Assembly (NCBI GenBank): GCA_021234155.1
Contig: JAJEKV010000021.1
Coordinates: forward strand, 11,089,523-11,153,522
DNA from: Isoetes taiwanensis
Taxonomy: Eukaryota; Streptophyta; Lycopodiopsida; Isoetales; Isoetaceae
Direction: 5' to 3'
DNA: 64,000 nt
Under the pieces are notes generated by a model, which was not told where the DNA came from, searched no databases, and saw only the letters and a program-made list of their open reading frames with translations. Every line of letters begins with the position of its first letter. Position 1 is the first letter of the stretch. The position numbers and the translations under genes are program-made. This document shows, one piece after another, positions 2,579 through 60,022 of the stretch.

Positions 2579-4253
2579 ATGACTATATGCAAAAAAACGG
2601 AAGGAATTACAAGAGAAGAAAATGGCAAAGGTAAATCTATTCCCATGCCTGTCTACGTCAAAACATAGTTCCACCAAAGTATAAGAAACGCAATAAATCA
2701 TCAACCTGGTTGCAGTCAACTCCCACAGAGGACCAACATATGGATGAGCGATCTGTTGATGATCTTGTGTCTTTCATTGATGGAGGTATGGACAATGCAT
2801 TTCTTCTAATCTACTCAACTTCTGATGAGCCTGCTTCAGCACCAGCTTTCTCAAACTTTGAGCTTGAAACTATTGTTATATCAAACTGCCAGTCATATAT
2901 TTTCAGCTGCATTTGTTGAGGCATTCTTCTTTATAGTTTACTGCCAAGAACAAGCTGATTATTGCATGACTGTGATAAAGTATGCGTCCTTTTTATGCAC
3001 ATTTGGTTACAGTTTCTCTCTATTGTGCAAATGTTAGGACACATAGCATAGATGTCTTGTCAACAGGTTTTTTTTAATGTGTTTATATGTATGTAAATGC
3101 ATTTATGGGCGATCCTATAGTAATCTGGACCATCTTTGCGCAAGGATTTTAAGTATGATTTTAAACTTCCAATAAGTGTGGAGAGGGCAGAAAAACACGT
3201 TGATATTTTTGCTGATTGGTTTAGTCGTGTGAAGCTTTAGGAGCCAAGTAGTAGAGCTGCAAGGGTACAATTGATTTTTTTGTATAAAATCGAAGTATTC
3301 TTACAGAACTAAATAGGGGGAACTGGGCTTTGATGATTTTGAAAGTTCTGGGTTCTTGGCTAAAGAGAACATGTATGAATGTATGAAAGTGTGCATGTCT
3401 GCATATGGCGTTTCAAATGTCTACCAAAAAAAAAGGCAAATGTCTCTGCTTCCGTTGCATTTAATGGCTCTCAAATGTCTTTGTATTTAGGTTGAATAAA
3501 AAGTTTGTTATAATTTTCATGTTGATATGGTATTACTGCACTTGTTTGTGCTGCTTATTTGTTGATTTTTATTAATGATATCATTCCACATTATATTAGA
3601 TGCTAAGACGAGCAAAATTGGGAAGTCAAAAAGAAAGAAAAACAAACGCAAGAAGGAGCATTTCAAAAATCACCCAGGCGCGGTTGAGTCACATGATAAG
3701 GTGAGACATTGTAAGTCAGGAATGTCTTTTCTCCTGTGATAATACTTCTGATTTTCTGCATAACAGGATTTGGAAGTCAATGGAGGAGATAAATAGACGT
3801 CATTGCCAAACAGTTCACAGCATCTAGATGTTGACAGTGAAGATATATTTGATGTTGATGATGATGATATTGATCATGTCCTGAGGGAGAAGTTAGACAG
3901 GTGACTTCACATGTTTTGCTCCATAGGCTGTCATTTATGAGTGTTTTACTGAGACAGTTTCTTGTTGTTAACCTTTAAAAGTTTTTGGGGGCAGGGAAGT
4001 TGAGGACTTTGCCAGAAGACTGAATTCTGATTGGCCAGACCGCATGCAAGAAATTCTTGCTCTTGCATCTTCCAGCCAAGAACAGAGAAGTTTAGCATCA
4101 AGAGTTGATAGGTTGCGCATAAGCTTTAACAGGTCAGATCAGGTTGGTGCGTTTGGTTTTTGTTACCATTTTATCTCAGGGCTGGTTGTCATTATCATGT
4201 ATTATACCATGTCTAACATTTTTATGTCTGAGGTGTTTTTTGTACAGGTGTGA
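2579..4253 (+). CDS. Small multi-exon gene for a basic/acidic hypothetical protein
   Basis: I reconstruct exons 2579-2630, 2669-2785, 3600-3700, 3797-3900, 3995-4142 and 4248-4253. They join in one frame across GT-AG introns and give 175 residues ending at TGA 4251-4253. The product has a lysine/arginine-rich patch (KSKRKKNKRKK), then an acidic stretch (DVDSEDIFDVDDDDIDHVL), then a probably helical tail (EVEDFARRLNSDWPDRMQEIL). I do not recognise the family. The basic patch could be a nuclear localisation signal. Two points are uncertain. The true start may lie in an exon upstream of 2559. The exon 4 acceptor at 3796 is chosen because an earlier acceptor near 3767 would bring in an in-frame TAG. 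The gene is divergent from the dioxygenase. Confidence 0.55.
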
Positions 4254-14745: not shown

Positions 14746-16321
14746 TGTGACGTCCCCTACTCGTATACGGTACCCTCACCGTATACAACCAGGAGTTCAT
14801 CCCCCATACCAGCTCCATGCCGATACAGGGCCCTCCACATGACACTGCAACCGTAACGGGTTCCAGTGGGAAGAGTGAAGGGGTCATTTACCCCGTCTCC
14901 CTCAGGGCCTATTTAGCTGCGGAAGCGTAAACATACATGTCAGTATATAAGAGCATCACCTATCCACCTCGATGGGTGGTCCGTCAACATCTGCATAGAC
15001 AAGATCAGCACAATACACATGGGAAATCCTACTCAAGGCTCAGACTCGAAGGGATGACTGATGGCTTGGGTCTCCAGAGTTCATTGCAGACAGAATTCAT
15101 GGCAATGCATTTGGCTGGCATAAGAACATGGCTTAGGGTTGTCCACTCCATCCGCCCCTCCTGTGCACACTTTGCAGAGTAGGCTGAAAAGTGTTGGGAC
15201 CTTACTGTAGCCCGCCGGATGCATAGCCAAAGGAACTATTCCTGGGTTGCATCTCCCCAGTTCCGATGGGGCAGGTAGGGATCTCTCCCTCCAGAGGTCT
15301 CCATGCTAACTCAAGGTGACTAGAGGGCCACCGCCCTTATTCGACTTAACCCACTAGAAAGTGAACACCACTTCACGGGTGTCGAGCCCATGCCTTACCC
15401 GCACTCAGTGGTAAGCCATTAGACCTAGTCACAATGATCCCCGGTAGGCCTTACACACCAGAGGGATCGATCAAGAGTTAGGACACGAACCTCCTTCTTA
15501 GCCAGTCTGGCCCCTTCACCCACAACCAGGTGTGGTTCTTGTACACAGGCCGAAACTACAGTGTGCTAGAGAGGCTAATCTAGGAGCATCTACTACTAAG
15601 CTTGAGGTCTCTACCCCCCTTCCCAATACAAGGAGTTCACAGAGATACATCATCCATATACATCACAGAAGAACGAAAGAACTAGATCTAATCTATCTCA
15701 TAGAGTTAGGTTCTTTAGTTAGAGTCTGGTATCTAGAGATCTAGAGGGCTGCTATGGGCAATTTAATAGGCTAAACCTACTGATTCAATGACTAGAAGAC
15801 GGTTTAGACTATTAAATTGACTAAATACCTGATCCTTGGCTTGCTCCTCCTGCTCTGAACTCGACCATCCTGCTAAACTGCTCGAATCAAGGGAAACTAA
15901 TGGTGCAATTCGCTCATACAGAGTCTGGGAGGTGGTTTTGGCTCTTGGAGCAACCAAAATAGAGCTCTAAAACCCTAGGAACGAAAATGGGCAAGTTAGG
16001 GTTTCTCCTATCTAAATAGACAAGGGGTTAGGGCTAGGGTTTCCAATTATCCCTTTAGGCATGTGGGATAATTGGGTATGGCCACTTGCCTTTAATGGCT
16101 AGGTGGCATAAATGTATCTACATGGGGAGGTGTGCACCTTAATAAATGTGCACATTGGTAAATATGCACATTAATAGTAAATGCACATACCTAGCAAGTT
16201 GCCCCCTAGGGGCTACCCACCTGGCTACACGTCGGCGTACACGTCAGTCGGAGTGGCGTGTACGCATGACGAGGCAGTACAGTATACGTCCTGGGACCGT
16301 ATACTGTGCTGGAACGTCACA
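14746..16321 (-). repeat. 3' LTR, full length (1576 bp)
   Basis: It begins TGTGACGTCC and ends GGAACGTCACA in plus orientation. Its inner 280 bases (16042-16321) match 25100-25380 with six substitutions and one indel by eye, about 2% difference, which suggests a fairly recent insertion. A purine-rich tract lies just inside it. Confidence 0.85.
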
Positions 16322-16336
16322 TTCTCCCCACCTTGA
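16322..16336 (-). other. Polypurine tract
   Basis: On the minus strand AAGGTGGGGAGAA directly precedes the LTR terminus TGTGACGT. This is the position of the plus-strand DNA primer in LTR retrotransposons. Confidence 0.75.
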
Positions 16337-16566
16337 AATGATGCTGTCCGCAGCATCGTGGGTCTCCCCACCTTGGGATCTTTCTAACCTGCAATCAACC
16401 TGATACATACAATATACTACTATAATATTTACACATTTATTAAGATTACCTTAAGGTAATATTTTTAGAACATTATTACGCCATTATCTTATGAAATAAC
16501 TTATCAATTGATAACATCATTAAAACAAGTTACTCAATAATTCACTTATCACGACAATTTAGTTTA

Positions 16567-19500
16567 TCAAAATTTTAATTTAACATTCGAGGTACTCTTC
16601 ATTCCTTGCAACACATTCCAACAAAATTTGTGTTGCAAGTCTTCGTAGCTCGACCTCCTTGCCCTCCGGAGCGCTCTTGTTTTCTTGAAAGATTTATCAA
16701 GAATCAAATCTGGAACTATTTCCAGCTGCTCCTCCGTCATTTCCAACAACGTTGGAGTGTCCAAGACTTCATCTGGATTTGGAGTATGCTTCTTCAATAA
16801 ACTCACGTGGAAGACTTTATGAATCTTTAGGTGTGCTGGCAAGTCTAACTTGTAGGATTGATTACCTACTCTCTTGACTATTCTGAAAGGTCCAGCCCAC
16901 CTTGGAGCAAGCTTCTTACAATTCCCGATGCGGAGCTTCGCCTGCTTCACTTTGATCTTGAGCCACACGTTGTCGCCAACTTCGAACTCCCTGACTGTCC
17001 GATGCTTGTCGGCGATGCTCTTCTGTCGACTCCTTACTGCTAGAAGATATCCCCGCACTTCTTCCACCAGCTGCTGCATGTCGGCCAACATCTGCTGCGA
17101 AACTTCTACTTTTGACACGGGATTGTGCCAAGTGTCTGGAGTTAGGCATTGATAGCCATAATTGATCATAAACGGCGACATTTGGGATGATTCCTGCTTG
17201 GTGCTATTGTGCGCAAACTCCACCAAGTGAATAAATTTTTCCCACATACCTTGCTTATTCCAGACATAGTTTCATAGCATATCCTCCAAAATCCTGTTGG
17301 TCCGCTCCGTTTGCCTGTCCGTCTGAGGATGATAGGCCGTGCTCATGGATAGCTTCGTCTGAATCGTCGCAAAGAGGTCTTGCCAAAAGGCACTCATGAA
17401 CTTCGGATCTCTGTCGGAGATGATCTCCCTCGGCATGCCATGGAGCCTGAAGATTTCTTTGGTGAAGAGCTTCGTTCTATCCATAGCCGTATCTGTGGTC
17501 CTGCAAGGCACAAAATGTGCCATCTTCGACAACTTGTCGACCACTACCATTAAGGCATCCTTCCCTCTTACTGTCCTTGGGAGCCCTGTTATGAAGTCCA
17601 TGCTGATGACCTCCCACTTAGCGTTTGGCACCGCTAATGGTTCCAATGCTCCTGGAATTCGAAGCTGCTCTGCCTTTGTCTGCTGGCATTGCTGACATTC
17701 CTTGATGTAGCGAGCTACCTGCTTCTTCATTCCTTGCCAATAATAGCTGCTGCGCACTTTGAAATATGTCTTCATGAATCCTGCATGGCCAGCTATTGGA
17801 CTGTTGTGTGCGTCATGAAGAATCAACTTCCTTACACCCGATGATTCTGGCACGCACAACTTGTTCTTGTGGTATAAGAGATTACCTTCCTTCTTAAAAT
17901 TTTTGAAGGTTTCTCTCTCCTTGTCTGTTCTTGCTTCCCTACATAAGCTTGCCTATACCTCCTTGAAGTCTACATCCGTTGACAAGGATTCTTCAATCTT
18001 CTTTCCGAAGTCGCTGGAAAGCGTCGAAATTGCATTGCAATGTACTCTAGTTGTCAGGGGATGCCTTGAAAGTGCATCTGCTACCACATTGAGCTTCCCC
18101 GGCTTGTAGACTATAACAAAGTCATACTCTTCGAGGAACTCCATCCACCTTCTCTGAGATGTGGTTGCGTGAATACATACTGGAGGCTCTGGTGGTCTGT
18201 ATCCAATTGGAACTTCCTTCCCAAGAGGTAGTGCCTCCAAATTCTTAATGCCCTGACATCTGCAAGCAATTCCTGATCATGGGTCGGGTAGCGCGTTTCG
18301 GCGTCGTTCATCTTCCTGGAATCGTACGCTACCACACGCTCTTCCTGCATGAGCACTGCACCTGTGGCTATCTTATTCGCATCTGTCGCCACAAGCTTAT
18401 CTTTCTCTGGATCTGGCAGGGTTAAGACGGGGGCGGTTGTCAAGGCTTCCTTCAGCAATTCAAACCCTGCCTGGGCTTTCTTGTACCAATGGTCTGCCCA
18501 ATCTTTCACCTTTTCCGCCCTCGTCAAGTCTCTTAGCGGGGCCGCTATCTTAGCAAAGTTCTTCACGAACTTCCTGTAGTACCCTGCTAGGCCAAGGAAA
18601 CTTCTGACCTCATGCACATTCTTCGGTGCCGGCCACTGAATGACGGCTTCAATCTTGGCGAGATCCGTCGAGATTCCTTCTGCTGATATTACATGACCCA
18701 GGTATTCCACCCTCTCCGTTGCGAAATGACACTTCGACAGCTTGGCGTACAACTGGTGCCTCCTTAATTTCTCAAGCACTCTCCTTAAGTGTTGCACGTG
18801 TTCCTCCAGGGATCTGCTATACACCAAAATGTCATCAAAGAATACTATCACAAAGGTGTCCAAGAACTCCCTGAAGATGTCATTCATGAGCCTCATGAAT
18901 GTTGCTGGGGCATTCGATAAACCGAAAGGCATTACCGTGAACTCATAGTGCCCATACCGCGTTCTGAAAGCGGTTTTATGGATATCTTCCTCCTTTATCC
19001 GGATCTGATGATAGCCTGACCTTAAGTCAATTTTGGAGAAGACCTTTGCACCTTGGAGCTGATCCATCAAGTCGTCCGATCTGGGGAGCGCATACTTGTT
19101 CTTGATGGTGTGCTTATTCAACTGCCTGTAGTCTATGCACATCCTCAAGCTACCATCCTTCTTCTTTACAAAAAGAATGGGTGCTCCAAACGGCGAGACA
19201 CTAGGTCTAATGAAGCCTAGGTTGAGCAACTCCTGCAGTTGCTTCTTTAGCTCTGTCAGCTCCTGCGTCATCATTCTGTATGGGGCCTTGCTTGTCGGCT
19301 TCGTCCCTGGTTCGAGTGTTATCTCGCACTCGACTCCCCTATAAGGAGGTAGCTGCTTGATCTCATCTGGAAAGAGATCGTGGAACTCCGTGATTAACTC
19401 AGCTACTTGCTTGGGCAATTTGCTGAGCCCCTTATCTTCCTTACCTTCTTCTGCTTTGGGTTCTTGAATCTCAAGCTTGAAGATATATGCTACCTGCTCA

Positions 19501-19935
19501 CTCTTTATGCACCTGAACAGCTGCTTACTAGACATGCACTGCATTATGGGAACAACTTCTTTACCTGTGATCTCTATGATCTTGCCATTGGGTGTTGTGA
19601 GAGTCACCTTCCGCTTTTCACAATCAATGAGGGCTCCTGCTAGACCAAGATACTCCATCCCGATGATTAAATCATACTTTCCAATGTTCATTACCTCTGC
19701 CCCCATCTGAATGTTAATTCCCGGCAATTCAATGTCGAAGTTGATTCTTTTGCCTGCCGTATGCCTTACTCCCCCATTTGCCAACACCACGGGTCTTGGC
19801 TTGGACTTCAAAGGCTTGAGCTTCAACATTTCTACCATTCTTGGGGATGCAAAGTTATGGCTACTTCCCGAGTCTATCAGGACTATGAAAGACTTGGCCT
19901 TGGCCTTCCCTACTGTAGAAATTACCTTATACTAG
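16567..19935 (-). pseudogene. Ty3/gypsy pol (protease, RT, RNase H, integrase), broken
   Basis: Protease appears as [10 protein letters not shown] near 19870, with an in-frame TAG just upstream at the expected start. RT follows ([37 protein letters not shown]) with the catalytic motif [10 protein letters not shown]. RNase H begins [17 protein letters not shown], where the family usually has DAS. A frameshift near 18200 moves the reading to [20 protein letters not shown]. Integrase has the HHCC finger (near 17800 to 17690) and a D,D,E core (MDFITGLP, ISDRDPKF, HPQTDRQTERTNR). A TGA interrupts at 17275, after LEDML, where CGA (Arg) would fit the family. The C-terminal domain (VGDNVWLK, KLAPRWAGPF) runs to 16567. 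The enzymes would copy and integrate the element if intact. Confidence 0.92.
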
Positions 19936-19982
19936 TTCTCTGCTTGTTCTGTGTCTATTGCGGCAAAGATATGACACTCGCC

Positions 19983-21263
19983 CTAAATATAGTCGCGGGC
20001 TGCCTCGTCGTCGTCGTCAGACGGAGTGTCCCAATCTCCCAACTCCGCTAGTGCTGCACTCATGACGTAGAGACAGTTCGCTGTCCTATGGCCTGGCTGG
20101 AAGCACCTGAAGCAAAGCTGCTTTTCTATGCACTCTTGCCTCTTTTCCTTGGGCATAGCCGGAAAAAAGGATCGCACTGCTTTGGAGTAGTTTGACCCCT
20201 CCTGCTTGTCCTTGAAGGACACCTGCTTTTTCTCCTGCTGCTTCCCCTGGTTGCCACCATATGGGGCTCTAGCTGGACCTGGGCTTGCCGCTCTAGGGCT
20301 ATAACTCCCTGCTGCCTTGCCTTTGTCCTGGTAATAGTGCTGCCTCTGCCCGCTATTCTGAGGTCCCGTCCCTTGCAAGCTTATTGCCTTAGACTCTGCT
20401 TCTGATACTATCTTAAGGTTTATTGCCCTTACAAGCTTGCGGATCTCATCATTCAGCCCTTCAATATAGCTCTCTACTGCATGCTTTTCCCTTAACTTTG
20501 GCACATAAAGCCTTAGTCTCATGAATTCCTTTGTATATTTCTGGACTGATTTGTTCCCCTGCTGCAACCTGTAGAACTGCTGCATCATGTTGGACTTGTT
20601 CTCTCTTGGGACATAGTGGCGCTTGAAAGCTTTAGCAAACCTCCTGAACCTGCAAGCATCCCTGCTTAAGCCATGGGCCTTGGCATAACCCTTCCACCAA
20701 ATGCGTGCTGCTCCTTTCAGGTTGGCTGTTGCCACCCTGCCTTTATCCTTGTCCTTCATACCATAAGCGTTGCCATATTCGCTCATTTCATCGAGCCAAG
20801 CCTCCGTTCTCGCCTGAGAATTGCTCGAGCTTCCTGGCCTTCCATACGTTTCCCAAAGCTGAATCTACCTTCTTCTGGTAGTCCGAGGTCTTCGCCTCTT
20901 TGGGTCTGTCATCCCTCCGGTTCTGCACTGGTTCAGCCTCTTCCTCGGAGTCAGAGTCTGAGTCCGAGCTTGAGTCGGAGGATTCCGTGCTGGAGGCCCT
21001 TCTTCTCTTGCTCCTCTTCTTGTCCTTGCCTGTTTTCCGAGCTGATGCTTGTGGCAACTGAGCGTTGCCCTCCGAACCAACTCCTGCTTGTGCGGCCAGG
21101 AAAGCCTTTATCTGCTCAAGGTCCGTCCTCATTTGCGATACTTCCTCCTCTGGGGTCATGGGTCCAAATGCTTCATACAGGCTCCTTGCCGGGGGTGGTC
21201 TGGGAAGACTCTGTTCTTCCCTATGATTTCGGCGTTGTCGTTCCCCTGAGCTCGGGTCTCTAG
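19983..21263 (-). pseudogene. Ty3/gypsy gag with zinc knuckle, one frameshift
   Basis: The N-terminal section is rich in Ser/Asp/Glu and Lys/Arg. A retrotransposon-gag domain follows (AARIWWKGYAKAHG, FKRHYVPRENKSNMMQQFYRLQQG, YTKEFMRLRLYVPKL). It ends with the CCHC knuckle CFRCFQPGHRTANC at about 20060-20110 and an acidic tail. A one-base shift near 20800 separates FSGEN from EAWLDEMSEYGN. There is no ATG at the 5' end. An acceptor-like TATGCAG precedes 21263, so gag may have been expressed from a spliced RNA. It would form the particle and bind RNA. Confidence 0.85.
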
Positions 21264-21486
21264 CTGCATACACAACTAGTTCATGGCTATATGGTTAGTT
21301 TTATTTGTTCTCTTGCATTATATGTGTTTGTTGGTATAGTTGTGGAACAAAATACATCAACAAAACATTTGAAGTGCAAAATAAATTATATTTATATTAT
21401 ATAATATCGTAATACAAAATCTCCGGGATCAAGAGTCTAACTATTCTTGAAATCGCCGGTAAGATGGGTTGTCCTCAAGGAACTTC

Positions 21487-22930
21487 TTAACTTGGGTCGT
21501 TCCTACCGAGCGTCCCAAGTTCCTGGGGACATTGCAAGGCTGACACCAACTCTTCTACTCTGTGGTCGGCGGTGTAGGCCGCGGTTACCGCCAATCTTCC
21601 CTGCCGTCGGTGGGGCACGGCGAAGTCGAAGATGTCAAGTGCCATTGCTCTCTTGACTAGGACAGCATAGTCGACATTTGTCGCTATTCGAGCATGCCTG
21701 CCGAAGCCTGAGAGTGCAATAAGCATGAACACTCCTTCTTCACCCCGGGGGCTGAATTTGCGGTGTATCACCGCTATTCTCCCATCCAGCAGCAGGGGCA
21801 GGTAGTACCGCAGTGACTTGTCATTGTGCGTCACTGAAGATTCTCCACTTGCTTGACCTCCAGCTCTATGCCGCCCGGCGTATTCGTCGACCTCAACCTC
21901 AGTCAGTTCCCGGTAGTCTACAATTGTGGAGTCGACTCGCCTGATGTCGATCCCTGCTCCTCTTGCTGGAGGTGGTGTCGAGGAGCTCGGCATTAAGATG
22001 CTCGTGGTCTTGCCACGGATCCCCATCGTTCACCGAGGGTGGGAACTCCTCCTCCGTTGGCGGCTCGGGCCCTTCCATCCCCGATGTTCGTTGTAGGCAC
22101 GGATGTCGGAAGTCGACTCCCCTGTGTAGGTGTCGGCTTCCCTGACTTGAAGCGGAAAGTTTGAGACTCCCCGGACGATGAAGTTGTTCAAGTCGGACTG
22201 CCGTAGTTGGTGCAGTAGTTCGTCAATCCGGAACTCGTTCTCCCTGCATTCAGGAAGGTTCTGGATGTCGCTGAGGAGTAGATACTCCTCTCCGTTGATG
22301 ATGATGGGGGCTAGGCTTGTGATGCCTAGCCCAAGTGGGGAGACGACTCGAGGGTCCGCCAGCTCGAAAGTTGGCCAGCTCCTCTTCGCTTTGCCGCTCT
22401 TCCTCCCGGAAGTCGAAGGTGTACTCTTCTGCCGTCCACTCATCTTCTTCTTCTCTTCCTCCTTGCTCTTGCTGGTACTGCAAAAGCATCTGCTCTTCTG
22501 CTTGGACTGCTATGGGGTCCACCTCAATGGGAGGAATAGAGGTTGCCCCCATTGGGTTTTCGGCGCGGTGGGAAAGGAAAATGGCTAAGGCGACGGTGTA
22601 GAAAAATCGGGTCCTGTCTAACCGCCGGGACCATGTAGTCCGGGTAACCTCTGCCTTGTTGGTCAAGTATTTGGCAATGTTCGGAACATCCCCCAAGGCT
22701 GCTTGAAGGGATGGGCGGGGAACAAAATACCCTATGCAAGGGGGGAGCTGCACTAGGGAGGGTCCTACCCTAGCTTGGAATTCTGCTAAAACTTGCCTGT
22801 ATGCTGGGGTTGCGTTCAGAGTGGCTTGGACATCTATTTCTTTCCTAAAGACTCGGAAGATGTCATTGACGTCGGCCTCGGCAGCATGGGCACTGGCGCT
22901 GTACCATCGCCTGAAGTCAGCAGTGGCCAT
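21487..22930 (-). pseudogene. Second extra gene of the element, unrecognised, frameshifted
   Basis: A genuine ATG at 22930 opens a ~190-residue stretch (MATADFRRWYSASAHAAE, then ADVNDIFRVFRKEIDVQATL), ending in an acidic run (EEEDEWTAEEYTFDFREEE). The reading then moves to a second frame near 22380 (ELADPRVVSPLGLGITSLAP, EEYLLLSDIQNLPE) and to further frames after about 22090, ending with LRYYLPLLLDGRIAVIHRKF and VDYAVLVKRAMALDIFDF at 21487. Codon-like content continues across all frames, so this was one protein of roughly 470 residues. I see no zinc finger, catalytic motif or membrane segment that I recognise. It lies between the H3-like gene and gag on the same strand, with its own TATA box. 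Confidence 0.5.
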
Positions 22931-23042
22931 TGATCTAGCGAAGAAGAGACTAGCAAACAGATGCAGAAGCGCCTCAGTGAGCTGGAAGATCGCCTAAGCA
23001 GTCAAGAGCAGACTTGTAGGGTGCTAAGTGAGAATTGGGGGA

Positions 23043-23054
23043 CCTATTTATAGA
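23043..23054 (-). promoter_or_regulatory. TATA box of the second extra gene
   Basis: TCTATAAATAGG reads on the minus strand about 113 bases before the ATG at 22930. The leader between them resembles the leader of the H3-like gene (GAGCAGA, AGGCGATCTTC-like blocks), which points to a shared origin of the two promoters. Confidence 0.65.
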
Positions 23055-23252
23055 AAAAGGGAAACCCTAATTTTTGGAAGACCTAGAATTTTACTGGGGT
23101 TGGGTGATTCTGATCTATTAAGAGGTGCAAATGAAGATTTGAAGACTACTTTTAGGGTTTGAGCATGCTAAGATCAACTAATGAACCTATTACAACGACT
23201 GGAGATCATTTGGACATGGCATGGTGAAGAAAATGCTGAGAGGTCTCACACG

Positions 23253-23303
23253 TTGCGCCCAGACCGATAATGAGAAGTTCATTTTCTGCCCTGGCGCGAC
23301 GTG
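23253..23303 (-). repeat. 51-base repeat, copy next to the second gene
   Basis: It matches 25047-25097 with two differences (core GCGCCCAGACCGATAATGAG). Here it is the centre of a foldback: GTCTCACACGTTGCGCC at 23243 pairs with GGCGCGACGTGTGAGAC ending at 23309, 16 of 17 positions. The two copies bracket the H3-like gene as direct repeats. Confidence 0.85.
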
Positions 23304-23556
23304 TGAGACATTGACTCTAATTGGGTTAAACTTGTCCAATTTGGGTGATCTAAGGGTCTAATTCTACTGGACTCGCCGAGTTAGGCAGAATTGACCCCTT
23401 ATTCGGTCAATTTGTGTGAGACATCGTCTCAATTTACTCAAAAAAGTCCAATTTAATCAAAACAAAAGCCAGAATTCGATATCTTAACCTAATTAAGCAA
23501 GATTAAACATATTATTTAACCAAAATTTCTTTGTATTAACAAAAATTTTCTAATGT

Positions 23557-24858
23557 TTAAGGGCGTTCTCCCTTGATATGACTAGCAAGATGCATGTCTT
23601 GCCTCATAAGTGTGACTCTCTTCGCGTGAACTGTGCAGGCCGTCGAATCTTCGAAGTGCTGCACCAGTTTCTGCTCTGCTGCCTCCTGTAGGCACATCAA
23701 CATTTCGTCAGTCACCCGCATGTCTGTGTTATACTCTTGCATAACCTCTCGGACTAAGCGTTGGAATGGTGCCCGGGGGATCAAGAATCCGTAACTTCGC
23801 TGGAAGTGCCGGATCTCCTTGAGGGCTCTCTGCTCCTTCTGCTTCCTGCTGGTCCGCTTCTTCCCTGGTGCTCTAGGAACCTTGGGCTTCGGTGGTGGCG
23901 GCTTCAGGGTCTGGCTCTTCGTCGACTGCCCACCTTCGATAGTCCATACCCTGTTCTCCTGGTAGTATGCGTTATATGCCTCCCACTTTTCCATGAAGGC
24001 ATTGTGTTCCCTCATCTTCTTTTGATAGACCTTCACGGGGTCTATCACATACGCCTCCCGTTGTGGCCGCGGTGCTTTGACCCTGCCCCACGTTGGGTAG
24101 GGTGGGGGATTCGGTGGCTGCCTGGGCTGCCCCTGCTCGGGTGCTTCCTGCTCTACAACCGGGGGTTTTGAAGAGCTTGCCCCCTCAGTGTTGGGGACGT
24201 AGTCTTCATCTGAATCGTCGGTGGAGGGCGGGGTCTGTCCGCCTGATGGCTCGTTGATGACCAAACCCCTTACTCGCTCAACCCTCACGACTGTTCTTTT
24301 CCCCGCCTTTATGCCCTTCGCCTTCCTCTGTTTCCGCTTGCCGGCTGTGCTCGGCTCTTCCTCTTGCCTTTTTCTCTTTCTTTCTCTGCGGCGCTCTTTG
24401 GCTTCATACTTCTTGATAAACGCCGCGAGGTCCTCTTCTTCAGCTGGGTCGAGCCTCGCCTGCCGCTGTTCCTCTATCTCCTCAGCCTCCTTCAAACAAG
24501 CCCAAGCTTCAAGTTGCTCCTCGATTGTTGGCTGCCTCTGCTCTTCACGTTCTTCAGCCACTCGATCTTGTTCCTCTTTCCTCCTCCTTTCCTCCTCAAC
24601 GATTTCTTCGAGGATCTGGTGCATGATGTCCGGCTGCTCCTCGTCTAGGACCTCTGTTGCCGCATCGGAGTGTGCATCCTCCTCTCGCTGCCGGGATCCT
24701 CCGCTTTGGTGTTCCTCCGAATCCGCCTCCTCGCTTGATGAAGACTGGTCATGCCTGAAAAGGCGTTCTTGAAGTATTCTTTGTATTAGGGCAGGATCAT
24801 GGGCGCTGGAGGATTCGCCTGGGCGGGGCTTCCTTGCAGTCTGCTTTGTCCGGGCCAT
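23557..24858 (-). CDS. Long histone H3-like protein with an authentic H3 tail and a ~330-residue inserted linker
   Basis: The ATG at 24858 opens an uninterrupted 433-codon frame. Residues 2-10 are ARTKQTARK, identical to the H3 tail including R2, K4, R8 and K9; the next residue is Pro instead of Ser10. Residues ~11-340 are a charged linker: Ser/Glu-rich, a long Glu/Arg/Lys-rich and probably coiled-coil stretch (IVEEERRRKEEQDRVAEERE), basic patches (RKRKRQEEE, GKRKQRKAKG) and a Pro-rich segment. The last ~91 residues align without gaps to the H3 globular domain: ALKEIRHFQRS, PFQRLVREV, LQEAAEQKLV, FEDSTACTVHAKRVTLM, ending GERP. I count about 47 of 91 identities to the plant H3 I remember. Such a protein would be expected to enter nucleosomes with H4. 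No K27 or K36 context is recognisable. Canonical H3 is about 136 residues. The gene lies inside a retrotransposon whose own genes are broken. Confidence 0.9.
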   Translation of the reverse strand: MARTKQTARKPRPGESSSAHDPALIQRILQERLFRHDQSSSSEEADSEEHQSGGSRQREEDAHSDAATEVLDEEQPDIMHQILEEIVEEERRRKEEQDRVAEEREEQRQPTIEEQLEAWACLKEAEEIEEQRQARLDPAEEEDLAAFIKKYEAKERRRERKRKRQEEEPSTAGKRKQRKAKGIKAGKRTVVRVERVRGLVINEPSGGQTPPSTDDSDEDYVPNTEGASSSKPPVVEQEAPEQGQPRQPPNPPPYPTWGRVKAPRPQREAYVIDPVKVYQKKMREHNAFMEKWEAYNAYYQENRVWTIEGGQSTKSQTLKPPPPKPKVPRAPGKKRTSRKQKEQRALKEIRHFQRSYGFLIPRAPFQRLVREVMQEYNTDMRVTDEMLMCLQEAAEQKLVQHFEDSTACTVHAKRVTLMRQDMHLASHIKGERP

Positions 24859-24957
24859 ATTCGACGGTTCGCCGATCTGAGCTGTGCGCCAGAAGATCGC
24901 CTTGGCAAACGAGAGCAGATTTCCTAAGGAAGGGACGCGGAAATGGGGGGGCCTAGG

Positions 24958-24969
24958 TCTATTTATAGG
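24958..24969 (-). promoter_or_regulatory. TATA box of the H3-like gene
   Basis: CCTATAAATAGA reads on the minus strand about 100 bases before the ATG at 24858. It has the same core and similar spacing as the box at 23043-23054. The gene could thus be transcribed independently of the LTR. Confidence 0.7.
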
Positions 24970-25046
24970 CGGGCGATTTTAGGTCAAATTTCAAACTACC
25001 TTTTTAGGTCACCTAAAACACATAGAACTCCTAAATTTAAGCATGT

Positions 25047-25097
25047 TTGCGCCCAGACCGATAATGAGAAGTTCATTTTCTGTCCTGGCGAGACGTG
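25047..25097 (-). repeat. 51-base repeat, copy next to the LTR remnant
   Basis: It is the partner of 23253-23303. Its right end is two bases from the point where the LTR remnant begins, so the break in the LTR occurred at or beside this repeat. Confidence 0.85.
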
Positions 25098-25099
25098 CG

Positions 25100-25380
25100 T
25101 CCAATTATCCCTTTAGGCATGTGGGATAATTGGGTATGGCCCACTTGCCTTTAATGGCTAGGTGGCATAAATGTATCTACATGGGAAGGTGTGCACCTTA
25201 ATAAATGTGCACATTGGTAAATGTGCACATTAATAGTAAATGCACATACCTAGCAAGTTGCCCCCTAGGGGCTACCCACCTGGCTACACGTCGGCATACA
25301 CGTCAGTCGGAGTGGCATGTACGCGTGACGAGGCAGTACAGTATACGTCCTGGGACTGTATACTGTGCTGGAACGTCACA
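25100..25380 (-). repeat. 5' LTR remnant (first 281 bases)
   Basis: It matches 16042-16321 of the full LTR and ends in the proper terminus ACGTCACA. The remaining ~1.3 kb of the LTR and the primer binding site are missing. Confidence 0.9.
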
Positions 25381-26696: not shown

Positions 26697-27683
26697 CCAG
26701 CGAAAAGTCAATGTAGAAGTATATTCATTACAAAATATAGTACATTTCTTCAGTTTCTTTACAAGATTCACACAATTCGATTATCTGAAAGCAGAGGTCA
26801 CTCTTCTTGTTCACCAAAATATTTGTCGTCCATAGCTTTCATGATCGCGCTGCTCTCTGGATCGACCTCCTTGAGGATAGATCCTAATCACATCGGCCAC
26901 AAGTATGGCAAACAGGGATTCCGCCAAGACAGGAATGAGCTTGAAAGACAACCACCTATCCGTTTCATACTCTTCTGGTCGATAACTCTTGACAATGATT
27001 GTATTGTGCAAGTTATGATAGTACTTGTAGGCGGAGTCGTCTATGATCAGAGTGTTGTGTTTGTTAAAGTCCTGGTATGCTTCATAAACCTTGTCCAGCC
27101 TTTTCACCATAATAGGCTTCCCCTTTGTGATCTCTGGATCAAGGTCTGACACATGCTCGACCCTTTCGTTTCCCCAAACAAACTTGAACATCAAAACTGG
27201 AAGGCCGAGAACACCAAGGACATTGATAATATTTTTCTTTGCCATACAAGACCATATGGCCACTTGGAATCCCCGTTCCACGCACCATTCAATAATCTCC
27301 TTTGCTCTAGGTCGAGGATACACGATTTTAGACCCCGTTTTTGTCGGGATCTGCGAGGTGTTAAGCTCAGGGACGTCTTTATCGTGGTATACTGTAGTTA
27401 ATACTCCATTGACGTCAAATATTATAAGCTTTGTGGGCCCCGCTGTATCCCAGTTAGAGTTTGGCTCTGACCAGATTTCTGATTGATCGGGATCCATATG
27501 CGGGATCATTATTTTTTCAGGTCCTTTCTTGCTGCCCGCACTGTCTTGCTCTTGACTGCCTTTCTTGGATCCAGTATCCTCCACGTGATGTGAACTGCCA
27601 GCAGATTCGTGTGATATTGACAATGATCCCGATTCGTTGCGATCGATGTCCCTGGAATGATGAAAGACGTCAGATAGGAAATG

Positions 27684-39479: not shown

Positions 39480-42392
39480 GCTCTTTCATTCAGGGAGCAT
39501 GTGAGATGAGCAAAATGGAGCCAAGGAAGCCCAGCACAGGACATTGCCCTAGGCTCCAATGGAGGAAGATGGTCTGCTTGTTGTTGCACCCTTGCAACGA
39601 GACAAGATTTTGCAGAGGGCATCATAACTGCCAGTTTGATCCTTTGATAGTGTGAATGATGAAAGGCTGGGGAGATGATCATCTTGGAGTTGGCATTGTG
39701 AAGCTTCTTATCCAAGTTGATACAATCATGTCCCGGGAAGTCGAGTAGTGATTGCATTGTGTGCTCGGGTTGTTGGAGTCCCAAACTTCGGTTGAGATGG
39801 CCAATTAGATATATTACACACAAGAATGGTGATGGTTTGGAATGCCCTACTGAACTACATACCCCAAGGCCCACCCCAGACCATGTGGAAGATTTGGTGG
39901 TCGATGAGCATCCTTTGATCACAAGGAAGAGGCGCTATGTTTTTCATAAGAGGCAGCCAAGGGTGCCCAAGAGGCCTAGAAGTGACAAATATTTAGAAAG
40001 GATGGAAAGAATGGCCCCAACCAAAGAAAACCTAGAGGCAATTAGGGGACAAGAGTGTTGCAACCTAGATTGCACAGTGCAGTACAGTGTGGATGACCTC
40101 GTGCAGATAAGGTCCCAATACATTGGACAGCTTCATAAAGATAGGATTAATTTCATCTACTCCTTGTGTAGGAATTCCAGCTATGATGAAAACACAGGAA
40201 GGCTACTATATCAATTGAGGGGCCTGAAGGTATGTATGAGAGCATTGAGATGGATTCTTGGGGTGAGCAAGTCTTCATTCTACAGATACTGGGAGCAGGT
40301 TAGAAAAGGGCACAGTTTGTTCCAACATGACAATGCACTCACTTTAAAACCTAGAGCAAATACTCTCAAGTCCATTGCAGTCTTCGAGAGCTTTGTGAGA
40401 TACATGTCTCAATCTATGCCCCACAAGTCGAAGGTGAACGAGCACGGTGTGCGAGTGGTGCAAAGGGTGTTGCCACAACACTATATCCAAAAGGAGTGCC
40501 TTAAAGAGGTCAACTCCATCCTAGAAACTACACTGAGGTAGGCCTCTTTCTCAATCACATTTCAAAGAAGTTATGGAGCACTCACTTCTCGACGTGAGTG
40601 TCCCGCAACACATGCCATTCTCAAAGTGCAACACTTGCATTCAACTCAAGGATACACTTGCATCAACCGCAATAGAGAAAGAAAGAATGGCAATTAGGGA
40701 GCAATTTGCGATCACCAAAGGGACTAAATATCATGTAGACAGCGATTGTATTGGCGAGAACAACATTTTCTCAGATGCGGCACGCATTTTTGTGTATAAT
40801 TCATGATAAGATGGACCAACACAAGACTTTCTTGCCAAAGCTAGATCCTTTTACCCAAGCGCTGTCAAAAACGCTTTTTTGAAAGTAAGTCCGTGGGTGT
40901 CTTAACACATGGTCATGGAACTGGAACCTATGGTCATTTTGTGCTTGATCTATGGAGGAATGATCCAAACTTCCATGTGAGCTCTATTTTCAAGTGCTTG
41001 AGAACACTAGAGAAAGGATCGATAGAAGGGAGGAGGTCCATCAGCACCCATTTTTGAGGCTTTGATGGATGATCAACCGCTTTGTTACCAAAGGCAGATA
41101 AAAAAGCTCACATCCAAGGTGTCTAGTGAATCAAGGAGGACTTGGGATGATTTCCCCTTACTTGAGAAACAATTGCCAGAGGAGCTACGTGTTCAATTGG
41201 ACAACTGTTGGAAAGAAAACAAGAATAGATGGATGTTTGGAGCAATGTCATACTTGACAGCAGTGGGAGTATTCAAAGTTGTGAAAGTGGGGTTCATGAT
41301 GGTTGGGCATACGCATGATGATATAGATGCATTCTTTGGAACTTTCTCCACCAAGCTCAAGAGAGAAAACGTGACTAGTCTCCCTGAACTAATGGATGTG
41401 TTTGAGAGCTGCATTGACCCCAGCCCAATGGCTTTCTTGATGGATGAGGTTACAGATTGGAAATCATTTGTCGAAGGATACTTGCTAGATGGTAAGAATC
41501 AGTTGACAGGACACACAAAGCCACTTCAATTCAAGTTTTGGGTTAGGGATAGAATACCAATCATGCAATATAAGTGGAGACCAGGTGACAAGTTGTGGAT
41601 GCCTGTACAAGGAATCGAGTTGTGGCAACGGGGTGCTGCTGGTGAAGTTCTCATTCCTAAAGGGCAGCCAAAACCACTACCTCCCTTCAAGACTGTCAAA
41701 GACTCTAGCCAACTAGTGAAGGGCATCAAGGATTATATAATGCACTGGGATGATGTTCGAAATGGAAAGCACACCTCCACTCTTAAGAAAAATCACATGG
41801 ACTCCCTAATCAAGTACTGGGAGAAAGTTGTGACATGCTTAGAAACTGAACAACCATGTGGGAGGGAGCTGAGAGACGGGTTCTTGCCAGAGTCAAGATG
41901 GGAGGGTTCTCAAGGAGCAAGCACGTCTAATAATGTTCACTTGGGTCCTAACAAGGGTTCCAAGTGGTTTGTGGAAAGTAAGGCCTCAAAGCCAAAGTGG
42001 TTTGATCTTCCTGAGTGGGATCCCTTTGAGGACATCAAGGAAGGATACTTTGTGCTAGTAAGGCATGATGATGAGGATTGTCCAATATGGTTAGGGGTGG
42101 CACTACCACTATGGCTGATGGAGAGGAGTTGCGTCCTGGATTCCAAATTCAATATTGGGAGCCCATTGGAAGACACAAGAAGGGCAACTTGAAGGAGCAA
42201 TACACCGACTGCTGGGAGAAGAAGTGGAGGGCAAATCATGCTGATCCTCAAAGGAGGGAATTGGTGGAGTGTGTGGTATGGTCATATCCAAGTTCTCACA
42301 TTGCAAAGGACAACACACACAAGATTCCAAAAAGGGAGATGGACAAAGCCATGAGCAACCTCCATGCTTTATCATTGTATGAGGGTAGATAA
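39480..42392 (+). pseudogene. DUF7869-like (transposase-like) gene, frameshifted
   Basis: Fragments on the plus strand follow one protein order. An N-terminal cysteine-bearing part (39480-39655) is followed by 39717-40541 (CCNLDCTVQYSVDDLVQIRS, RWILGVSKSSFYRYWEQVRK). Next come 40573-40806 (FSKCNTCIQLKDTL), a shift to HDKMDQHKTFLPKLDPFTQAL near 40804, HGHGTGTYGHFVLDLWRND near 40915, and 41062-42192 with the signature VGHTHDDIDAFFGTFSTKL. That signature and the spaced acidic residues fit the DUF7869 family as I recall it, which is widespread and often repeated in genomes and has a suspected transposase origin. At least four frame changes make this copy non-functional unless some are introns. 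I found no terminal inverted repeats around it. Confidence 0.6.
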
Positions 42393-49264: not shown

Positions 49265-51575
49265 GACTGTAAAACTGTGTCACTACTTTCAGAATTTTGT
49301 ATTCTCATCAAATCCTTCAACATGTTAAACCTTGGTTCTCTGAGAGCCTTAGTTAGTATGTCTGCTATTTGTTTTTTTGTTGAAACGTATCTTACTGCTA
49401 TAAGCTTCCTCTGAACCATTTCTCTTATAAAATGTTGTTTCATTTCAATATGCTTTGCCCTTTCATGAGGGTTTTGAGGCATAGCAATCCCGCTGGCACT
49501 ATCAGACCATCGTGTGGCTGGCTCGTGATCTTTAATTCCAACTTCCTCTATCAATCTTCTTATCCAAATTATTTCTTTTGATCCCAAAGTTATTGCTGTG
49601 TACTCAGCTTCTGCACTTGACAATGCCACTGTACTTTGCTTTTTGCATTTCCAACTTATTGGATTTCCACCTAACATCACTACATAGCCTGAAATTGAAT
49701 GCCTTTGATCTGCATCTCCACCCAATCTGCATCTGCAAAAGCTTCAAGATTGCACCCTTTATCTCTGAAATTAATTCCATGATTTACTGTCCCCTTTAAG
49801 TACCTTAGAATTCGTTTGGCAGCTGTCCAGTGTTGCCTCCCTGGGTTATTGTTGTATCTACTCAGCAAATTAACAGCAAAAGCTATGTCTGGCCTTGTGG
49901 CTCCTGCCAAGTGCATCAGACATCCAATTAATCTCCGGTAAGGAATCTTTTTCATTTGTTCTATCTCTTCTTCTGTGGTAGGATACATTTTTTTGCTTAT
50001 TTTATGCCCCGGCACCAAAGGAGTATCTGCCGCATTGCAGTCTGTCATCCTAAATCTTTCAACTACTCCTTGTACATAATCTGCCTGATTCAAACTCATA
50101 GTCTTCTCCTCTCTATTTCTGATTACTTTAATTCCCAAGAACCTTTTCAACTCCCCTAGACCAGTCATTTTAAATCTGGACCTCAGTAATCCTTTGCAAG
50201 TTTTCAAGCAGTCCAAATTGCTAGAGAACATTACACAATCGTCCACATATAATGCAATAAGACAAAATTGATCATGCTGTTTGTACACATACAAGTTTCC
50301 ATCACCATTTAATTTCATAAATCCTTGGTCAGTCAAATACTTATCCATACATGAATACCATGCCCTAGGTGATTGTTTAACCCCATAGACTGCTCTCTTG
50401 AGCTTCCAAAATTTGTCTCCTTTTACTTCAAATCCCAAAGGAGATCTCATGTAGATTTCTTCTTCTAGCTCTGCATTTAAAAATGCAGTACTAACATCCA
50501 TATGATGGACTTCCCAATTCATTGTATTTGCTAATGCCAGCATCATTCTTATACTTGACATCTTCACAATGGGAGAATAAGTGTCATTATAGTCAATCCC
50601 TTTTTGCTGTGTGAATCCTTGAGCTACAAGCCTGGCTTTGTATTTCTTTGCTCCATCAGGAAGTTCCTTGATCTTATAGATCCATTTATTTCCAACAATA
50701 TTTCTGTTTGCAGGTCTATCTACTATCTCAAAGGTTTCAGTTCTTTTGAATGATGTCATTTCCTCATCCATTGCAACTTGTCAATGTTTGTGATCTTTAC
50801 TATTCATGGTCTCTTCAAATGTCTGTGGCAGATTGATTTCCATTGCTGTCATCAAGTGAGAATCACTTCTTCTTCTATAGCCTCCAATCTTTTACGTTTT
50901 CCATCAATCTCTCTGCCATGCTCATGAATTTCAATTCCCTTGTCTGCCAATTCCTTTTTAAGTCTCTCTGGCTCAGTCATTCTTTTTCTTTGCTTGGGGG
51001 CATTAATTTCTTCCTGTACTTCCTCATTGTTGAGGTCATTTGTTTCAATATTTTCTTGTACTATTTCATCAGATTTCTCATCATCATCACTATTAACCTC
51101 ATTCTTATAAATGCATCTTTTCAACTTCAGTAGCCTTATTCTTCCTTTGCATGTTCAGATCTTTGAAATCCTTATACAACTATTCTTCTGAGAATACAAC
51201 ATCTCATATCTTCCTCTTGCTTGGGGCAAAAAGCCTGTATGCTTTAGACTCCTCGTCATATCCAATTAAAAATGCAATTAAAGCCCTGTCATCTAATTTA
51301 TTTCTTAATTCCTCTGTTTATAGAGCCTCTTCCAACATATTTGGCAATCCAGCATGTTTCAACATAGCTCTCACTGCATTTAAACAAGTTATATTCTTTC
51401 TCTCTGCTACTCCATTCTGCTGGGGAGAATATCTGCATGTCAATTGCCTCTTTATTTTTTTTTCAATGCAAAAAGCTTTAAATTTCTTTGATATATACTC
51501 ACCACCCCTGTCTGACCGTAAATATTTTACTTTATAGCATGTTTCTCGTTCTACTTCAGTCAAAATATGTGGCAT
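49265..51575 (-). pseudogene. Ty1/copia pol remnant (integrase end, RT, RNase H)
   Basis: The reading begins inside integrase (YLRSDRGGEYISKKFKAFC, then SPQQNGVAERKN with the catalytic Glu). It continues through DRALIAFLIGYDEESKAYRL and an acidic spacer, then RT: KARLVAQGFTQQKGIDYNDT, HHMDVSTAFLNAELEEEIYM, and LIALYVDDCVMFSS with the YVDD active site. RNase H follows (ISGYVVMLGGNPISWKCKKQ, LSSAEAEYTAI) and ends near TKALREPRFNMLKDLM. A frameshift lies near 49725, and others lie between integrase and RT. Gag, protease and both LTRs are missing. The 3' side abuts repeat X. Confidence 0.9.
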
Positions 51576-57289: not shown

Positions 57290-57870
57290 AAGGTTATTAT
57301 GTCAAACCTTGTGTTGACTTTTGTGATCCATTTATTTTCTGGGAGGGCCCCTCCTTTGAAGTATGCCCCTAGTAGAGTGGGAAAAAAATGGAAGCCTTGG
57401 TCGAATAAGATCCCTTGGCTTTGTGTAACCCTAGGTGGGATGGGGGGTTTCAAAATGAGTTTGTACTTCCCCTTGCTAGTAAAGATATTCTTTTCAAGAG
57501 GTTTACCAACAGGAATATTATGTCAAACCGTTGACCTCTCTCACTATTGTGGTCTATTTCCTTGTAGAGAGGGCGAGGGGCCTCCTCCTCCTTTGACATA
57601 TTCCCCTAATAGATTGGGGAAGAAATGGGGGTCTTGGTTGATAAAGGTCCCTAGGGTAACCCTTGGGGGGATGGGGGGTTTCAAAAAGAGTTTGTACTTC
57701 CCCTTGCTAGTAAAGGTATTCTTTTCAAGAGGTTTGCCAACATGAATATTATGTCACACCGTTGACTTGTCTCACCCTTGTGGTCTATTTCCTTCTTGTG
57801 GGAGGTCTTCCTTTGACATATTCCCCTAATAGATTGGGAAAGAAATGGGGGCTAGGGGGTAACAGCCTGA
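57290..57870 (+). repeat. Tandem array, ~225-base unit, about 2.6 copies
   Basis: Unit starts are marked by ATTATGTCAAACC near 57296, 57517 and ATTATGTCACACC near 57747. Each contains GGGATGGGGGGTTTCAAAA and CTTCCCCTTGCTAGTAAAG, except the truncated third. It lies just upstream of the first recognisable RT motif, where an L1 endonuclease would be expected. Confidence 0.85.
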
Positions 57871-57899
57871 CAAGTTATATCTACCTTGGAATTTGTGGT

Positions 57900-60022
57900 C
57901 CATGCTGGCTCTTATTGATAAAGATCCTTTTCTCATCAGGGTCCTGTAAAAGGAGCATCATTCTGACACGCTTGAAACCCATACTCAATAGGGTCATTGG
58001 GAAGGAGCAATCAGCCTTCTTGCCTGGCAGATATATCTTGGACAACTATCTTGCAGCCAGGGAGGGGTTGAATTGGTGTCAAGCCTCAAAAAAAAAGTGC
58101 ACAATGATTAAGATGGATTTTAGAAAGGCTTATGATTCCCTCAGATGGACAGGGTTACGTGCAGTAATGTGTTACATGGGATTTGACGCTCAATTCATCC
58201 GTCTAGCTCTAGGGATGAACAGCCTAGCTTCGGCCTCGGTGCTGATTAATGGGCAACCCTCTGGTCTATTTAATCTCAAAAAAGGAATAAGGCAAGGTTG
58301 CCCCCTTGCTCCCTATCTGTTTCTCATCATGGCAAACCTTTTAACAAGAATGGTCCACCTCAAAGTGTCAGAAGGGAACTTAAAAGGTTTAACCTTTCCA
58401 GAAGGTATGGACAAGCTAACGATCATGCAGTATGCTGATGATACTTTTATGTTTCTCAGATATGACGACAATAGCTTTCTCTCATTCCGAGAGATCTTGC
58501 TGTCCTTTGAGGTTATTTCTGGAATTGGCCTCAATGCCAATAAATGCTTTGTTTTATGGCCTTCAGAAAGCGACATTGATCCTCGAGCCAAGGGTCTGGG
58601 TTTCCCAGTAGTGACTGCCAGGGAATCAGTTAAACTTCTTGGACTTCCCTTGGTGCTTTCTGATAGTCTTAAAGGCCTTTGGGCCCCTATGCTTGATAAA
58701 CTGAGAAAGAAGGTTGGTCTGTGGTCTACAAAGTCCCTTACTACATCTGGACGAGTGACAGTGGCAAATGCTGTTATTTCTGCCTCTCATATTTATTACT
58801 CACCAGTCATGGTTGCCCAAAAAGGGGTGTCTAACCAAATCCAGATTATCATCGGGAAATTTATCTGGGGGGGCATGGCGAAGGTGGCCTGGGGTGAACT
58901 CTGTCGTGACAAAAAAGATGGTGGTTTGGGCTGTAAAGATCCCTTCTTACAAGCTCAGGCTCTGGCAGCCAAATTTGTATGGCGGGCTCTACAAGGTGAG
59001 TCATCCCCTGCTCTGAAATTTGTCTCTTATTGGTTGAAGCAAGGCAAGCTCCTTGGTAAGCCATCTCTCCCTAGGGATGAGCTGGGTGCTTTGTTCTACA
59101 ACTTCAAGGTGGCTCCTGGAACATCTCATGTCATGCGGAAAATTCTTCATGCTTGGTTGCAGGTGCAACATCTCCTCTCCTATGGATTCCCCTAGGGATG
59201 CAGGTGGATTTAGTTTATTTTGGAAGGGTTGTGGAATAACTTTGTTGCAACACCTCTGGGTTAATGGCAGATGGGTTAACTGGACTGTATTCAAGGGGAC
59301 AATCTCGAACCCAAGGGAAGGAGACCGTAAAGTTTTAAGGGAGATCTTATGGAATGCCACTAATTTGACAGGTATTGTGGAGCCACGGGAGAATTGGCTA
59401 CATGATGGGCGAATTCAGTATAGTGTGAAGAGGATATATAGGGATCTGTGCCAGGACGCCCCCATGAAGGCTGAGGTAAGGCTTGGGATTAGTATGGCAG
59501 AAACCAAAACCTTACTGTCAAACTCCTGGAAGTCTATCTGTTCTAGGAAGATTCAATTCTTCAGATGTAGGGGAATTAAGTACTACGGAAAGCTTATTTA
59601 ATAAGGGTTTTACGGCTGATGACAGATGTCCATTTGGCTGTCAGATCACTGAATCCATAGCGCACCTCTTTTTCTGTCCCCGGATTGTTGAATTCTGGCA
59701 ATGGGTTTGTCCTATTATTGGTATCATGCTATGTCAACTGGTCTGGCCAGAACTGGTCATGAGCTCGGATCACTGCTCCATTGATGCCTCCCTGGTGCAT
59801 CTGACACTTTGGGTTATCTGGAAGCATCGTTGTGATGTGGCTTTGGGTGATCAGGGGATCTCCATGGAGAAGCTAAAAAACTCTTTCAATATGGAAGTTG
59901 CTATGATGGCCCTATCTCATCATAGAAAGAAAGGCACGAAATACAACAAAGGACTTGATAAAGTAGGGATCCTAGTAGGGTTTTATTTTTTCTTCAGGTG
60001 CCACTGGGTTGATAACGAGTAA
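57900..60022 (+). pseudogene. LINE reverse transcriptase and C-terminal cysteine region
   Basis: RT begins abruptly at LTRLKPILNRVIGKEQSAFL after the tandem array. Motifs are MIKMDFRKAYDSLRW (A), KKGIRQGCPLAPYLFLIMAN (B), MQYADDTFMFL (C, catalytic YADD), then GLNANKCFVLWPSES. The long frame runs to 59195. The reading shifts near there and again near 59560 to RCPFGCQITESIAHLFFCP, the zf-RVT pattern. RT N-terminal motifs are missing. Confidence 0.88.

Follow-up and report, generated by a model that had tools for sequence, protein, structure and literature searches.

The H3-type open reading frame of the window

The window, that is, the whole 64,000-nucleotide stretch of Isoetes taiwanensis contig JAJEKV010000021.1 analysed here, carries on its minus strand an open reading frame of 433 aa (23557..24858) that was taken from the ORF list and characterised by Pfam and PDB searches. 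The translation begins with MARTKQTARK (residues 1–10; 24829..24858, minus strand), in which residues 1–9 of histone H3 are exactly present, and ends with an H3 fold (residues 339–433; 23560..23844, minus strand). The Pfam Histone model matched residues 316–428 with a score of 96.7 bits (E value 1.5e-27; family cut-off, 26.4 bits), the best PDB match was an H3.3 chain (1.3e-26), and a profile built from 13 copies of the ORF again retrieved H3 chains as the best matches (6.6e-33). The alignment to H3 is free of gaps from H3 residue 46 through the C-terminus, with 48 of 88 residues identical to host H3 in the window copy and 50 of 90 in the family majority. About 325 residues of long, charged linker with basic and acidic stretches separate the tail from the fold. 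The ORF thus exceeds the H3 standard of about 136 residues, in which a tail of about 38 residues is joined to the fold; across the family, the size of the variant is about 415–450 aa. The preliminary description of the locus had proposed a 433-codon frame starting with Met and ARTKQTARK, an H3 fold with a gapless and roughly half-identical core, and a long expansion between the two H3 ends, all of which were borne out by these analyses.

Residues of H3 that we take to be among its contacts with H4, DNA and the other H3 (R69, R72, R83, K115, R116, T118, C110, H113 and D123) were compared by alignment, and such contact residues are mostly kept in the element fold. Contact residues altered family-wide include R63, which is P in 27 of 27 copies, and R129, which is H in 23 of 24. 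Both AlphaFold models were poor (mean pLDDT 54.8 and 44.1) and lacked a clear histone match, and Foldseek searches with them returned nothing at E ≤ 0.001; therefore, no structural claim is made.

A Ty3/gypsy LTR retrotransposon carries the ORF as a fixed gene

The H3 ORF lies within a Ty3/gypsy element that occupies 14746..25380 on the minus strand, as delimited by comparison of the LTRs and flanks. The flanks, GCGAT and ACGAT, agree at four of five bases and represent a target-site duplication with one change. The 5′ LTR is a remnant of 281 of 1,576 nt (25100..25380, minus strand), which aligned with the 3′ LTR over 280 positions with 6 mismatches and 1 gap; the H3 leader follows directly on these 281 nt, and the primer-binding site is missing from this copy. 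Downstream of the H3 ORF, likewise on the minus strand, are ORF2 (21487..22930, from the ORF list), which begins MATADFRRWYSAS and is broken by frame changes in this copy, gag in two frames (19983..21273; Retrotrans_gag, 2.1e-17), a protease remnant followed by reverse transcriptase (RT) and RNase H (18111..19838; Pfam), an integrase in two pieces with H2C2, rve and SH3_Tf2-1 matches (16567..17859; Pfam), a polypurine tract recognised by sequence (16322..16334) and the adjoining 3′ LTR of 1,576 nt, TGTGACGT...ACGTCACA (14746..16321; LTR comparison). The coding order gag, protease, RT, RNase H and integrase is that of Ty3/gypsy elements, and LTRs with TG...CA ends, a tRNA primer site (in other copies) and a polypurine tract are all found. 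In the window copy, gag, RT and integrase are each split over several frames, in agreement with the earlier description of gag and pol as broken.

ORF2 belongs to no known family and has no Pfam or PDB relative; over 10 other copies, its N-terminal part of about 260 aa gave a dN/dS of 0.15. A Chromo domain match was not obtained at the integrase end of the window copy, in which the integrase is broken. This end (16567–16750) begins with a stretch that we take to be chromodomain-like (PDLILDKSFKKTR), and judging from this one broken copy, it is possible that a reader of H3 marks was lost in an element that bears its own H3.

The same arrangement was found elsewhere in the genome. In 30 H3 loci, the window's own included, an LTR stood beside the ORF in 27, with 25 reaching the exact last LTR nucleotide. 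The primer site TGGTATCAGAGC was exact in 20 of the 25 loci in which the best match started from residue 1 (21 counting one variant; the five other loci were left out of this sample). RT and H3 places were then paired, using the best 76 of 40,558 first-look candidates for RT and the best 97 of 20,897 for H3. At 13 of the 76 RT places (including the window), a scored H3 start lay 4.6–5.3 kb upstream of the RT start on the same strand, compared with 0.09 expected, and four further pairs on the same strand were 18–24 kb apart; as both sets comprise just the top-scoring places, this pairing count is a lower bound. The element order is LTR, primer-binding site, H3 ORF, ORF2, gag-pol and LTR, and the H3 ORF is a fixed gene of a high-copy Ty3/gypsy LTR retrotransposon, located between the primer-binding site and gag; it is therefore retrotransposon-borne, as had been proposed. 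Because the 5′ LTR of the window copy breaks off at 25100, we also considered whether an unrelated H3 gene had been inserted into an LTR element (a nested insertion); this was rejected, as the order from LTR end through primer site and leader to H3 ORF is constant at other loci.

Ogre-type plant elements carry an extra ORF before gag, and the H3 element resembles them in having an extra ORF upstream of gag. The extra ORF of Ogre-type elements is not known to encode a histone. At one location (L011 and L013; contig C935, 1,352,037-1,355,180), two element H3 ORFs are arranged in tandem, 1.87 kb apart.

Putative promoter modules preceding the H3 ORF and ORF2

Two TATA boxes of identical sequence, TATAAATA, were identified from the sequence and the comparison of copies, one 109 nt before the H3 ATG (24960..24967, minus strand) and the other 122 nt before the ORF2 ATG (23045..23052, minus strand). 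The spacing is fixed in the family: the distance from TATAAATA to the H3 ATG is 108–119 nt in 24 of 25 copies, and of the 19 copies with an identified ORF2 ATG, 18 have the box 122–123 nt ahead of it. Folding predicted a leader hairpin before ORF2 (23243..23309, minus strand; −40.6 kcal/mol, z −7.2), and a repeat search located a cut-down copy of it, a 51-nt repeat, upstream of the H3 ORF (25047..25097, minus strand). The corresponding 61-nt inverted repeat gave 66 exact-pattern matches in 25 copies; most of the matches fall, relative to the H3 ORF, at about −450 and −250 upstream and at +151 and +351 downstream. There are up to four of these hairpins per element, in pairs about 200 bp apart that precede each TATA box. 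In 12 of 43 hairpin sequences, picked for diversity, 5 of 22 base pairs showed pair-keeping changes on both sides. We infer that the two modules, each consisting of a TATA box and paired hairpins, are promoters of the H3 ORF and ORF2. For an LTR element to contain separate promoter modules, each with paired hairpins, would be unusual in itself.

Purifying selection across copies

Of the 30 H3 loci, 28 could be aligned (L028 and L032 were too short), and 27 were counted for dN/dS after L013, the tandem copy of L011, was dropped. The pooled dN/dS was 0.03 for residues 1–10, 0.25 for residues 11–33, 0.20 for residues 34–310 (the linker), 0.11 for residues 261–325 and 0.10 for the fold; RT gave 0.06 (30 loci, the window's included). 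As a control, the fold read in the two wrong frames gave 1.4 and 2.6. When the copies were divided by distance, the ratio for tail plus fold was 0.11, 0.11, 0.10, 0.08 and 0.06, and the ratio for the ORF was far below 1 in all five distance classes, at a dS of about 0.65. The copies had been picked by protein similarity, which lowers the ratio; this choice alone is insufficient as an explanation, because the fold, with a dN of 0.07 at a dS of 0.67, departs too strongly from neutrality. In the aligned part of the ORF, 16 of 27 copies were free of in-frame stops and 11 contained them.

Purifying selection thus keeps the H3 tail and fold across copies, and the gene is almost certainly kept for the function of its protein. 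A dead hitchhiking gene is rejected on the ratios of tail, fold and linker. The preliminary description had named two outcomes as refuting it, no significant histone-model match, or other copies that are all broken with neutral dN/dS, and neither was observed. It had attributed the open frame of the window copy to recent activity or separate selection. The open frame reflects selection on the family rather than demonstrated recent activity of this particular copy, from which the primer site and the greater part of the 5′ LTR are gone.

Numbers of H3 and H4 sequences in the host genome

Genome-wide counts were made in the I. taiwanensis assembly of 1,658,258,908 bases in 1,110 contigs. In the Histone search, fifteen places scored as canonical genes; eight of them were read, each encoding an H3 of 136 aa that we take to be of plant type. 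An ATG followed by ARTKQTARK (in a pattern that also permits Ser in place of Arg) occurred at 1,051 places, and the H3-core signature C-[AT]-[IVM]-HAKRVT at 3,405, with no match of the reversed-pattern control in either case. A chance resemblance to H3 is ruled out by the Pfam match and by the absence of reversed-pattern matches for both signatures. Because fifteen Histone places score as canonical, eight of which were read, we estimate that about 1,000 of the 1,051 ARTKQTARK places are copies of the element. Element copies can swamp H3 gene counts and CENH3 searches in such genomes.

The corresponding search for H4 gave 69 first-look candidates, all of which were scored, and 43 matches, including 16 full-length ones with 99–100% identity. 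The amplified histone is therefore H3 and not H4, which is still a small family; of the other core histones, the search covered H4, and its capture as well was rejected on this count. As H4 is not amplified, host H4 would be the partner of the element H3.

A second H3-bearing family

Two further loci, L069 (413-1834) and L070 (454-1884), contain frames of about 475 aa whose C-terminal part is a near-canonical H3 core (Histone, 1.2e-43 and 2.6e-41, respectively) and whose N-terminal part differs from the H3 ORF of the first element. The ARTKQTARK tail is absent from both of these copies, and the primer site, LTR end and TATAAATA were not found in the few hundred bases flanking them. ORF2 of the first element was considered as a relative of the N-terminal part and was rejected, as the two showed no profile similarity. 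A search with L070 scored 89 places on 57 contigs, L070 itself and 88 others at 77–92% identity, as the best of 11,153 first-look candidates; this second family is thus dispersed and high-copy in the same genome. Between L069 and L070, the core is near saturation at silent sites (pS 0.74) with 8% of replacement sites changed, and 73 of 200 residues are identical in the N-terminal part, a comparison that indicates strong constraint on the H3 core of this family. Paired inverted repeats are also present upstream of L070.

Likeness of the fold to plant CENH3

The fold was compared with the CENH3 of Arabidopsis, maize and rice. These three agree with one another against host H3 at 7 columns, of which 25 of 26 element copies match CENH3 at 5 (R63P, L65A, Q85T, S87E and V89L) and the remaining copy at 4. 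The same columns gave 0 for L069, 0 for L070 and 1 for human CENP-A. In a wider count, 14 of 44 changed positions match some plant CENH3, compared with 4.0 (sd 1.8) under a BLOSUM62 null; this count is less specific, because L069 (5 of 14, null 1.3), L070 (3 of 11, null 1.4) and CENP-A (8 of 32, null 3.3) likewise exceed the null. A tree of 22 rows, including 12 copies and the CENH3 sequences, groups the element with plant CENH3 with support of 96/91, and a tree with the element held with H3 is not rejected at 0.05 (p-AU 0.057). The element, Arabidopsis CENH3 and CENP-A form long branches in the tree.

Alignment scores were higher to host H3 than to Arabidopsis CENH3 in all four copies tested (e.g., 243 vs 192), with nearly equal identity in an example copy (48/88 vs 47/89). 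The element differs from plant CENH3 in lacking the loop-1 extension, its loop 1 being of H3 length, and in carrying the exact H3 tail instead of a divergent CENH3-type N-terminal tail, together with the 325-residue linker. Since the fold has residues diagnostic of plant CENH3, the source gene may be other than canonical H3, and to us, derivation of the fold from a CENH3-type H3 and from canonical H3 appear about equally probable. The earlier proposal that the element had captured an H3 gene thus holds in that both ends of H3 are kept, while a canonical source for the gene is in doubt.

Relation to known elements and viral histones

No report of an H3 gene in an LTR retrotransposon was recognised among the titles and abstract openings of open PubMed Central papers listed. 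The word 'histone' does not occur in the main text of the I. taiwanensis genome paper (PMC8566536) or of another Isoetes genome paper. The nearest parallel comes from Dothideomycete fungi, in which hAT DNA transposons transduplicated histone H3 (PMC6710886). RIP has inactivated most of these copies in at least five species, and one species has many intact recent copies (PMC6710886). Capture of H3 by a mobile element and its subsequent multiplication are common to both cases, the fungal copies numbering tens or hundreds. The fungal carrier is a DNA transposon with an H3 coding sequence that has no apparent added linker (PMC6710886), whereas the quillwort carrier is a plant LTR retrotransposon whose H3 gene encodes a long fusion protein, has a TATA box of its own and is under purifying selection between copies.

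Single viral histones, such as bracovirus H4 and viral H3-like proteins, are reviewed in PMC9145170. They also represent a selfish or viral genome with one host-like histone, and are thought to enter host nucleosomes (PMC9145170). Their carriers are DNA viruses or wasp viriforms, in contrast to the retroelement described here, which is present in the genome in thousands of copies and has 325 residues inserted between the H3 tail and the fold. Chromodomain-bearing Ty3/gypsy elements (chromoviruses) include the lycophyte Tcn1 and Galadriel clades, as described in PMC3350952, and share with the H3 element that they are Ty3/gypsy elements of non-seed plants tied to histone H3 marks. Chromoviruses bear the reader of H3 marks on the integrase (PMC3350952), whereas the H3 element bears an H3-type protein, without a Chromo match in the one copy searched.

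Possible function of the element H3

The explanation that we consider best, with a probability of roughly one half, is that the element encodes an H3 variant that is put into chromatin to the benefit of the element. The H3-variant protein would be made from the internal promoter, pair with host H4 and enter nucleosomes, where its tail could be read or modified at K4 and K9 and the linker would act as an arm. Such an accessory protein would alter chromatin either on the new DNA of the element or at its target sites, and copies would then be expressed or inserted despite silencing. A variant that enters chromatin is favoured over a soluble decoy, centromere steering and a role in the particle because the tail and the fold are the most constrained parts. 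The tail is what chromatin factors see and the fold is what the nucleosome needs, and the contact residues are mostly kept, which likewise favours a histone variant. Taking the parts separately, we lean towards the element H3 working as a nucleosomal histone; a role in anti-silencing or marking falls somewhat short of an even chance. A more elaborate history, in which a centromere-type H3 taken up by the lineage bears a genuine H3 tail at the end of a 325-residue arm and has long served as the element's own histone for building or marking chromatin at its DNA, with most of the 3,405 core signatures lying in repeats by way of the second family, is on the doubtful side.

The tail might instead act as a mimic, its ARTKQTARK end occupying H3 readers, writers and chaperones and so blunting silencing; nucleosome entry would be unneeded, and the fold would serve for dimerising or chaperone binding. 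Residues 1–10 are indeed the most constrained part of the protein and are set 325 residues from the fold. However, the fold is strongly constrained too and retains most of the nucleosome contact residues, and such a decoy appears unlikely. Less probable again is that a CENH3-like histone steers integration or segregation of the element towards certain chromatin, centromeres for instance: the diagnostic CENH3 residues and the position in the tree are in its favour, but loop 1 is of H3 length, the tail is that of H3, and the scored copies are unclustered (8 pairs within 1 Mb vs 5.6 expected, 97 places). As this last observation concerns genomic copies, it says nothing on where the protein localises. 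Binding or condensation of the element's nucleic acid in the particle or integration complex would suit a protein encoded within the element whose long linker contains basic and acidic stretches, but would leave the conservation of an exact H3 tail unexplained, and H3 is not fused to gag; we rate this slightly below steering. Passive amplification of a captured gene without function, for which the mostly inactivated fungal copies (PMC6710886) and the in-frame stops in 11 of 27 copies might speak, is barely credible given dN/dS far below 1 in every distance class and the fixed place and promoter spacing of the gene.

An H3 gene kept by selection across many copies means that the element may act directly on host chromatin. 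If the variant does enter nucleosomes, a mobile element would supply a building block of host chromatin, and a transposon would have a direct route to change the marks meant to silence it, with a testable arms race over histones.

Other ORFs in the window

Outside the element, the window contains a Copia-type RT ORF (49680-50771, minus strand; RVT_2, 2.5e-77) and another RT ORF (57762-59195, plus strand; RVT_1, 2.9e-23). An ORF at 26811-27623 (minus strand) has an NLI-interacting-factor-like phosphatase domain (3.6e-11), and one at 41062-42192 (plus strand) matches DUF7869 (3.7e-39).
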